Source: Halosimplex halophilum (lineage in GTDB: Archaea; Halobacteriota; Halobacteria; Halobacteriales; Haloarculaceae). From it: a stretch of DNA of 64,000 bases. Shown here in pieces: positions 38,813 through 41,702 of the stretch. How positions within the stretch are numbered: the stretch's first letter is position 1; each line of letters opens with the position of its first letter. Where the stretch lies: positions 62,001-126,000 of the forward strand of contig NZ_ML214297.1 of NCBI RefSeq assembly GCF_004698125.1, written 5' to 3'. The position numbers were made by a program, and so were the translations under genes. The notes under the pieces are model-generated. The model was not told the origin of the DNA and ran no database searches. It worked only from the letters and a program-made list of their open reading frames with translations.

Positions 38813-38946
38813 TCCGTGGCGGCCTGTTTGCCGGTTTTCGGGCCTGAGGGCGCGAATATCGTGCGGCACGCGAGCGCCGGAACGTGCGGACGAGCGACGG
38901 ACGCGTTTCGACAACCGTTTTAGGCCCGGGGCATTTCTACCTGCCA

Positions 38947-41160
38947 ATGGGTTCGTGTATCATCTGCGGGAAGTCTGTCGACGGTCGCATCTGCGACCTC
39001 CACGAGGAAGACGTCGTCTTCGAGTTCCGCGGGAACCAGCCCGACCAGCTGACGGTCGACCGCTACTACCGCGGGACCGTCGACGGCTACGCCGAGTTCG
39101 GCGTGTTCGTCGACATCGGCGACAGCGTCACCGGACTGCTCCACCGGAGCGAGCTCGACCAGCGGCTCGAGAGCCTCGACTGGGAGTCCGGCGACACCGT
39201 CTTCGTGCAGGTCCAGCAGGTGCGAGACAACGGGAACGTGGACCTGGGCTGGTCGATCCGCCAGGCCGAAAACGAGTTCCGCGGCACCCTCGTCGACGAC
39301 CCCGAGCAGGGCGCACCGTATCTCAAAGAGGACGAGTCGGGAAATGAGGACGCGGCAGCCGACGACGGTTCGGCTGCCGACGCGTCCGACACCGACAGCG
39401 ACGCCGGAGCCGGGTCCGACGACTCCGACGTGACGACCCGCGGCGACGACTCGGAGTCGGAGACGACCCGCGGCGACGAGCGCGACGACGCGGCCGCCGA
39501 ACCGCCGCCCGCCGCCGCGGCCGCGACCGAGACGCCGGCGACGGCGACCGACGGCGACGCCGGGGCCGGCTCGGGCGAGGGCGGCGCGGCGGCCGCCAGC
39601 GGGGGCGGCGCGACCGCCGTCTCCGGGGAAGAGCCGGACGCCGAACCGGACGCGGAGCCGACACACGTCGCCGTCGAGACGCTCGACGACCGGGTCGGCG
39701 AGACGGTTCGACTGGAGGGCGTCGTCGAGAGCGCGCGCCAGACGAGCGGTCCGACGGTCTTCGAGATCCGCGACGAGACCGACAGCGTCGAGTGCGCCGC
39801 GTTCAAGGAGGCGGGCGTCCGCGCCTACCCCGAGATCGACACCGACGACGTGGTCCGCCTGGACGGCGAGGTCCGCGAGCGACGCGGCGAGCTCCAGGTC
39901 GAGACCGAGGCGCTGGTGAAACTCGAGGGCGAGGAGCGCGAGACCGTCGCCGACCGGCTGGCCGACGCGCTGACCGCGCAGGCCGAGCCCGACGCGGTCG
40001 AGCCCATCGCCGCCGACGAGACGGTCGAGGCGCTGAGCGAGGACGTGCGCGAGGTCGCGACCGCGGTCCGGCGCGCGGTCCTCGAGGAGCGGCCCGTCGT
40101 CGTCCGCCACGCGGCGACCGCCGACGGCTACGTGGGCGGCGTCGCCCTGGAGCGGGCGACGCTCCCGCTCGTCCGCGACCAGCACGACCAGCACGACGCG
40201 GTCTACCACTACTTCGACCGCCGGCCGCTGGAGGAGGGCGTCTACGACATGGACGACGCGACGAAGGACGCGACGCGGATGCTCGAAGCGCGCGAGCGCC
40301 ACGACGAGAAGCTGCCGCTGTTCGTCTTCGTCGCCGCCGGCGCCACCGGCGAGTCGCTCGACGGCTTCGAGCTGCTCGACCTGTACGGCGCCGGCCGCGC
40401 GCTGGTCGACGACGTGGCGGTCGACCCCGAGATCGAGGCGGCGGTCGACGCCGCCGTCGCGCCCGAGGGCACCGACGCGCCGGAGACGACCGCCGCGACG
40501 CTGGCCGCCAACGTCGCCGCCCACGTCAACGACGGCGTGCGCGAGGACCTGCAGCACCTCCCGGCGGTGAGCTACTGGGAGGACACCCCCGAGGCCTACG
40601 CCGAGGCCGCGGACGAGGCGGGCTACGACGAGGCGGCCGTCCGCGAGGTCCGCGAGGCCGTCGCGCTGGAGGCCTACTACCAGTCCTACGAGGACAAGCG
40701 CGAACTCATCACGGACCTCCTCTTTGGCGAGGGCGACGGCCCCGGCGGGCTCGCGGGCCACGTCAGCGAGCAGTTCCGCGAGAAGCTCGACGCGGAGATC
40801 GAGACCGCGGAGGCCAACCTCGACACCCAGACCGTCGAGGGGACCGACATCGCGGTGCTGGACACCGACGCGTTCACCCACCGCTACGAGTTCCCGCCGA
40901 CGACGCTGCTGCTGGACGAGCTGCACCGCCGCCACCGCGACGACGTGAGCGCGGTCATCGGCGTCTCCGACGACGAACTCCACATCCGCAGCGACCGCGC
41001 CATCGACGTGCGCGACGTGGCCGACCGCGCCCGCGAGTGGGTGCCCAACGCCGGCCTCACGGCCTCCTCCGCCCGCGACGGCAAACTCGAATACATCGCC
41101 GGCGAGCGCTCGGCGGTGCTCGACACCGTCATCGACGTGGTCGCCGACGAAGTGGCCTGA
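38947..41160 (+). CDS. RecJ-like DHH-family protein with zinc finger, S1 and OB domains, catalytic motifs degenerate
   Basis: A 737-residue multidomain protein of the archaea-specific RecJ-like (COG1107) type. Order: zinc finger (Cys4, Cys7, Cys16, His19); S1 RNA-binding domain at about residues 35-105 (YYRGTVDGYAEFGVFVDIGD); acidic low-complexity linker (120-235); OB fold (240-330, VRLEGVVESARQTSGPTVFE); DHH-like domain from about 365. Where active members have RHHxDxDGY, this one has RHAATADGY; the second motif Asp is replaced (VAAGATGES) and the DHH triad reads DDV (about residue 486). It may therefore bind nucleic acid without cutting it. Start supported by gttttagg 31 bases upstream. Confidence 0.82.
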   Translation: MGSCIICGKSVDGRICDLHEEDVVFEFRGNQPDQLTVDRYYRGTVDGYAEFGVFVDIGDSVTGLLHRSELDQRLESLDWESGDTVFVQVQQVRDNGNVDLGWSIRQAENEFRGTLVDDPEQGAPYLKEDESGNEDAAADDGSAADASDTDSDAGAGSDDSDVTTRGDDSESETTRGDERDDAAAEPPPAAAAATETPATATDGDAGAGSGEGGAAAASGGGATAVSGEEPDAEPDAEPTHVAVETLDDRVGETVRLEGVVESARQTSGPTVFEIRDETDSVECAAFKEAGVRAYPEIDTDDVVRLDGEVRERRGELQVETEALVKLEGEERETVADRLADALTAQAEPDAVEPIAADETVEALSEDVREVATAVRRAVLEERPVVVRHAATADGYVGGVALERATLPLVRDQHDQHDAVYHYFDRRPLEEGVYDMDDATKDATRMLEARERHDEKLPLFVFVAAGATGESLDGFELLDLYGAGRALVDDVAVDPEIEAAVDAAVAPEGTDAPETTAATLAANVAAHVNDGVREDLQHLPAVSYWEDTPEAYAEAADEAGYDEAAVREVREAVALEAYYQSYEDKRELITDLLFGEGDGPGGLAGHVSEQFREKLDAEIETAEANLDTQTVEGTDIAVLDTDAFTHRYEFPPTTLLLDELHRRHRDDVSAVIGVSDDELHIRSDRAIDVRDVADRAREWVPNAGLTASSARDGKLEYIAGERSAVLDTVIDVVADEVA

Positions 41161-41240
41161 TACGGAGTATTGCAAGACATTCCGAGATCGACCGCACGCG
41201 GTCGTGCGGTCGACTCGGTAAACGCTTGCAATACTCCGTA
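41161..41240. repeat. 80 bp palindromic MITE-like element
   Basis: TACGGAGTATTGCAAG at 41161-41176 is exactly mirrored by CTTGCAATACTCCGTA at 41225-41240. Inside, CGACCGCAC and GTGCGGTCG form a second stem within CCGAG...CTCGG, so nearly the whole 80 bases can fold into one long hairpin. It begins at the base after the stop codon of the RecJ-like gene. It encodes nothing and could be a non-autonomous transposon remnant or a structural transcript end. Confidence 0.75.
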
Positions 41241-41309
41241 TGAGCGGCCGAGTATCACAGCCGACAGTCGCGGCCGAAGCTTTTTCCCCATCATTTCGTT
41301 CGTGTCGGT

Positions 41310-41702
41310 ATGTCCGTCGTCGCCGACATGGCAGAGATCACCGCCGACCACGCCGGCGAGTCGCTCAGGTACTTCGCGGAAGTCGAGCCGGAGTCGCGGG
41401 CGGTGACCGTCCACCACCGGCGGGACGGGCTCGACTGGACCGACGCCCGCGAGCGCGAGGTCGAGGAGGAGCTCCACGAACTCACCGCGAAGGCGTCCTA
41501 CGAGGCGGCGATGGACGCGACGAACGTCAACCAGATCATCAAGGTCGCCGACGACAAGGTGCTGTTCACGGGGTTCGTCGAGGACACGGTCGCGGTCGCC
41601 GCCTTCGACCGCGGGATCTTCGCGACGCTGCCGGCCATCGTCGCCGACTTCCGGGAGTACATGATCGAAGAGGACATCGAGTTCGTCTCCCTGGAACTGT
41701 AG
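41310..41702 (+). CDS. Conserved soluble protein of unknown function
   Basis: A 130-residue acidic alpha/beta protein. The start at 41310 rather than the internal Met six residues later is supported by a T-rich box (gctttttcc) at 41278-41286, about 29 bases upstream. The best conserved-looking part is the second half, VNQIIKVADDKVLFTGFVEDTVAVAAFDRGIFATLPAIV, ending in a helix and short strand. There is no membrane segment and no catalytic motif. The clear promoter and normal codon use argue for a real gene. Confidence 0.75.
   Translation: MSVVADMAEITADHAGESLRYFAEVEPESRAVTVHHRRDGLDWTDAREREVEEELHELTAKASYEAAMDATNVNQIIKVADDKVLFTGFVEDTVAVAAFDRGIFATLPAIVADFREYMIEEDIEFVSLEL

Follow-up and report, generated by a model that had tools for sequence, protein, structure and literature searches.

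The SMR-A and SMR-B elements of Haloquadratum walsbyi measure 80-110 bp, produce no target duplication and carry inverted terminal repeats unlike those of any transposon, and SMR-A is known to target IS605/PATE palindromes (PMC3119063). It is also known that a 2-bp TA target duplication is characteristic of the IS630/Tc1/mariner group (PMC2170065). Here we describe an 80-bp element in a 64-kb stretch of Halosimplex halophilum DNA, the whole of which is referred to below as the window. It resembles the SMRs in size, inverted ends and haloarchaeal host but, on the published description of the SMRs, it is set apart from them by a target duplication and by ends that match a transposon. Like the MITEs of bacteria and archaea (PMC10969869), it is short and non-coding, has terminal inverted repeats, occurs in multiple dispersed and polymorphic copies and has a target site duplication, and by analogy it would be moved in trans; it differs from them in that its family is of fixed length (79-80 bp), consists entirely of hairpins and resides strongly at stop codons. 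Considering that its ends and the length of its duplication are those of a transposase-bearing element, we are confident that it is a non-autonomous MITE that borrows its ends from a haloarchaeal clade of the IS630 family (Tc1/mariner-like). A search of the open-access full-text literature, a scope that leaves ISfinder outside, gave no account of this 80-bp family, of IS630 elements with a TNA duplication or of IS630 elements with haloarchaeal MITEs.

Structure of the element and empty sites

The perfect 16-bp inverted ends that had been predicted from the sequence are exact, and the element does begin at the base after the stop codon of the upstream ORF, with the same TGA again directly 3' (Table 1). 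In shuffles of the window the TACGGAGTATTGCAAG inverted pair had a mean of 0.05 matches and two were never seen; the repeat is the longest short-range inverted repeat of the 64 kb. The predicted internal palindrome is present as the CCGAG...CTCGG stem and the whole element folds, its RNA reaching -66.9 kcal/mol vs -32.0 +/- 3.6 for shuffles (z = -9.7), with pairing that goes one base further, to A41160/T41241. The inner stem is conserved between copies and the loop is often inverted. A covariance-model search of the element against Rfam yielded chance-level matches only, none above the gathering score.

Table 1. Coordinates of the element, its parts and the neighbouring features in the window
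Feature	Position	Strand	Remarks
80-bp element, very probably an IS630-type MITE of the TNA class	41161..41240	.	Inverted repeat, fold, 8 genome copies, empty site in G006
Left terminal inverted repeat, 16 bp, perfect	41161..41176	+	TACGGAGTATTGCAAG
Right terminal inverted repeat, 16 bp, perfect	41225..41240	-	Exact reverse complement of TACGGAGTATTGCAAG
TGA ending the upstream gene as its stop codon, also left copy of the target site duplication (3 bp)	41158..41160	+	ORF end; empty allele has a single TGA
TGA, right copy of the duplication	41241..41243	+	Sequence; empty-site comparison
Subterminal TTTACC, nt 19-24 from the right end, as in IS630 transposon ends	41217..41222	-	
Left-end equivalent of TTTACC	41179-41184		ATTCCG, degenerate
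Inner stem-loop	41182..41218	.	CCGAG-A-TCGACCGCACG, loop CGGT, CGTGCGGTCGA-CTCGG
Upstream gene ending in the shared TGA	38884..41160	+	S1 + OB-fold domains; start uncertain
Native T-tract, between element and downstream ORF	41279-41285		GCTTTTT
Next downstream ORF, small protein	41310..41702	+	Without Pfam match

A search of the genome disclosed a dispersed repeat, with many copies in relatives and eight canonical ones in H. halophilum, each measuring exactly 80 bp from TACGGA to TCCGTA; the others are 85-89% identical to the window copy. All eight lie directly 3' of a stop codon (TGA in seven, TAA in one) and have TGA at both flanks save where one side has mutated. Since four of them face one way with respect to the stop codon and four the other, the TGA is part of the target and not of the element.

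The window site was found empty in genomes of the same genus, most clearly in G006, which has the two flanks joined and uninterrupted with one TGA. The element has therefore been inserted here and has duplicated a 3-bp TGA target. The other relatives' genomes examined at this gene end are also without the element, and their downstream sequence differs. Clean empty sites were likewise obtained, by comparison with congeners, for three copies of Halomicrobium katesii (L321:10144, L322:9378 and L323:9965), the closest relative aligning over 160 bp without gaps at 94-99% identity and with a single TCA or TGA. Further empty sites were located by a joined-flank search, and two more copies of the window genome support this evidence; for L006, L011 and L013 of the same genome the downstream sequence is too diverged for exact placement of the junction. 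The sequence is thus neither unique nor conserved at one gene end, the observation that had been proposed to tell a MITE from a terminator, and the original reading of a MITE, or of a 3' end borrowed from one, is supported by the dispersed copies, the empty sites and the matching transposase-bearing family described below. As a minor observation, in L006 (G000:C1:689070-689149) the terminal A of the element and the TG of the duplicated TGA make an ATG (ATGACC...) that could start the downstream frame, and L063 is similar.

Distribution of the family

We built a covariance model on 50 copies and scored with it up to 32 candidates in each of 146 genomes of the family Haloarculaceae. Relatives in sequence and structure were found in at least 94 of the 146 genomes and at least 19 of the 22 genera, the hosts including Halomicrobium katesii, Halomicrobium mukohataei, Halorhabdus, Halapricum, Haloarcula species and several MAGs; genome G033 alone carries about 146 copies. 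Subfamilies are distinguished by the inner stem and by outer ends that read either TACGG or TAGTG, and the length is constant at 79-80 bp. Searches for the element gave chance matches only in viral contigs and none in phage records. These elements, widespread in one archaeal family, may lead to misplaced gene ends and repeat artefacts when genomes are annotated.

Longer elements with the full 16-bp ends of the 80-bp element were sought in G000, G031, G023, G033, G001, G006 and 74 GTDB stretches, and none was found. A 3.2-kb pair of ends in G023 proved to consist of a truncated copy and a whole one flanking a valyl-tRNA synthetase-like gene. At L225:1477-5741, a copy of the element contains an insertion sequence whose GAGGGTGTCATAG ends are partly duplicated; this insertion sequence at first resembled an autonomous element and was rejected.

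Target site and residence at stop codons

Identical 3-bp TNA flanks were found in 142 copies, and in 141 of them the triplet was TGA. The logo of these 141 intact TGA duplications reads G (61%), A/W, C (85%), TGA, G (63%), A/W, C (61%), that is, a symmetric GWC-TNA-GWC target with a C-TNA-G core, mostly CTGAG. Since it is the same for insertions at stop codons and elsewhere, the logo is due to insertion and not to codon usage.

Stop codons, counted with an ad hoc gene caller, were occupied by 65 of the 112 copies with intact duplications (58%), about 2.5-fold the 24% expected once the target preference is taken in (13% without it; p = 1e-14). By set, the copies at stop codons were 40/63 in the GTDB stretches, 20/44 in G033 and 22/45 in Halomicrobium katesii. 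With RefSeq annotation, five of the approximately seven recognisable copies on plasmid pHmuk01 of Halomicrobium mukohataei adjoin annotated stops, vs 11.5% expected. No copy was found within a called gene in the GTDB stretches, G033 or Halomicrobium katesii, though coding sequence accounts for about 58% of the preferred sites; survival explains this absence, the insertions within genes presumably having been lost. That stops are occupied in excess of other non-coding sites may be due either to harm to promoters or to targeting. That the machinery of transposition or retention prefers gene 3' ends beyond CTNAG itself, for example because it is coupled to where transcription ends or because the host benefits, which would make the family a stop-codon-homing class with IS630 transposases and a 3-nt stagger, seems to us rather unlikely.

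For the non-autonomous MITE that we favor, the proposed sequence of events would be as follows. An IS630 transposase would bind both ends through TACGG or TAGTG plus TTTRCC at nt 19-24, excise the element and join it at CTNAG with a 3-nt stagger. CTGA is taken to be a common gene end in high-GC haloarchaea, and insertion there would duplicate the TGA, restoring the stop codon and leaving the length of the gene unchanged. The window copy would then have been inserted long ago where the upstream gene ends, in a genome from which the mobilizing transposase has seemingly been lost. By duplicating the stop codon that it hits, the element illustrates how simply a transposon can avoid doing harm in a gene-dense genome.

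The likely IS630 partner transposons

The transposase gene with the same ends, which the original prediction had also called for, was found in relatives, as a family matching in both ends and duplication, and not in the window genome. There, no match was obtained to the partner IS630 transposase (E <= 1e-8) or to PF01609, PF13586 or PF13358; for this reason, and because of their 85-89% identity, the copies of H. halophilum look like fossils, immobile now. The likely partner in Halomicrobium katesii is a transposon of the IS630 family that measures about 1.14 kb, has the ends TAC[A/G]GTCGTGC...GCACGACCGTA and is bordered by TCA on both sides in three copies. Its transposase matched NF033545 with E values of 1e-27 and 1e-21, each half ORF being below the 100-bit cut-off, and PF13358 with E = 3e-30, above the cut-off. 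In L304, L306, L308 and L309 this transposase is in two ORFs (HTH and DDE parts), possibly a programmed frameshift, and the same split is seen in annotated plasmid copies.

A family-wide protein search showed partner relatives with TACGGTCG or TAGTG ends and TCA, TGA, TTA or TAA duplications; in many genomes the ends of the partner transposons are TACGGTCG or TAGTGATTA, and plasmid copies of the clade in Halorubrum, Natrarchaeobaculum, Halovenus and Natribaculum have the same ends and duplications. TTTRCC stands at exactly nt 19-24 in most ends of the clade and in the 80-bp elements. The latter thus share with the haloarchaeal IS630 copies (for example those of Halomicrobium katesii, Halorubrum ezzemoulense and Halovenus salina) the TACGG/TAGTG terminal bases, this subterminal motif, the TNA duplication and the C-TNA-G target; the intervening sequence is not shared, and the partners are 1.0-1.15 kb long with a gene, whereas the MITE has 80 bp and none. 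On the basis of these shared sequences, the clade is the likely mobilizer. The fixed 80-bp length and conserved inner stem are unusual for a simple deletion derivative. As candidate mobilizers, the DDE_Tnp_1 transposons of G006, G031 and G033 were discarded on account of their unrelated ends, and DDE_Tnp_1_2 was absent from the five genomes tried. Some partner copies have flanks that do not match (for example TGA/TCA in L306), possibly through recombination between copies.

Characterized IS630 members duplicate the 2-bp TA (PMC2170065), and as the 80-bp element duplicates a 3-bp TNA instead, we file it under a variant clade of IS630 and not as a canonical member. A sister family of 80-bp elements, found in G001 and G006 and ending in TAGTAGAATTTG, has the same length, architecture and inner-stem sequence as the family of the window element, but shows the TA duplication of IS630, at CTAG, and has few copies at gene ends. 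It matches a second, TA-duplicating IS630 clade with TAGTAG ends. What argues most strongly for the IS630 assignment is that MITE and transposon match in two separate pairs, which differ in the length of the duplication. A TNA clade beside a TA clade, each with 80-bp MITEs, would show that the stagger of strand transfer can change within IS630, and both pairs are natural substrates for testing it. Sister copies (TAGTAGAATTTGAAAG ends) are seen at L081, L084, L085, L105 and, in G001, L168-L187; those of G001 are many and near-identical, and the sister family is mostly off stop codons.

A mobile hairpin of unknown mobilizer, like the Haloquadratum walsbyi SMRs, would agree with the similar size of HqIRS41 (80 bp) and with the transposase not being found in the same genome; the TNA duplication and the IS630-like ends, neither of which is described for SMRs, make this improbable.

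Hairpin arms and loop

Across 50 distinct copies, 13 of the 16 outer pairs had changed on both sides, with a covariation of 0.282, where shuffles gave 0.138 and slid controls 0.04-0.08. Such compensatory changes, together with the strong hairpin and a location directly after stop codons in excess of expectation, are what might be seen in a structural 3' end, i.e. a terminator or an mRNA-stabilizing hairpin held by selection and not mobile. However, outer-stem mismatches on the gene strand were equally common as G.U (29) and A.C (32), so that the outer stem can be explained without selection for an RNA hairpin, and RNA selection is not supported as the source of its covariation; in the inner stem there were 140 G.U vs 57 A.C, a count made unreliable by shared ancestry. 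Moreover, the native T-tract 3' of the upstream gene is kept in filled and empty alleles alike, which does not support a terminator. Taken with the empty site in G006, the exact TNA duplication and the location of about half of the young copies off stop codons, this makes a structural 3' end very improbable. An IS200/IS605 single-strand element of the PATE or REP-like type, although small, palindromic and known from haloarchaea (PATEs), is hardly credible given the true terminal inverted repeats, the insertion either way round with respect to the target and, above all, the 3-bp duplication at empty sites, since IS605-type elements make none.

For the MITE, we infer that the arms are kept matched by template switching between them or by one protein recognizing both ends. 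The loops of Halomicrobium katesii read TACTCCGTGGC in 12 copies and its reverse complement in 7, and elsewhere CAGT and ACTG are found. We take this loop inversion as a sign of inversion via the hairpin or of template switching. Both orientations occur among otherwise alike copies at L205-L277 of Halomicrobium katesii and at G033 loci, for example TACTCCGTGGC and GCCACGGAGTA.

Two further observations concern the flanks. In L148:6357 and L167:7482 the left flank is TGA and the right one TCA, inverted and not direct, possibly through recombination between copies. Finally, TGATACGGTCG, which is like the end of the IS630 partner, recurs directly 3' of the right TGA in L155, L159, L153, L101, L211 and L251, and in L159 it forms a short palindrome, TGATACGGTCGCACGACCGTATCA.
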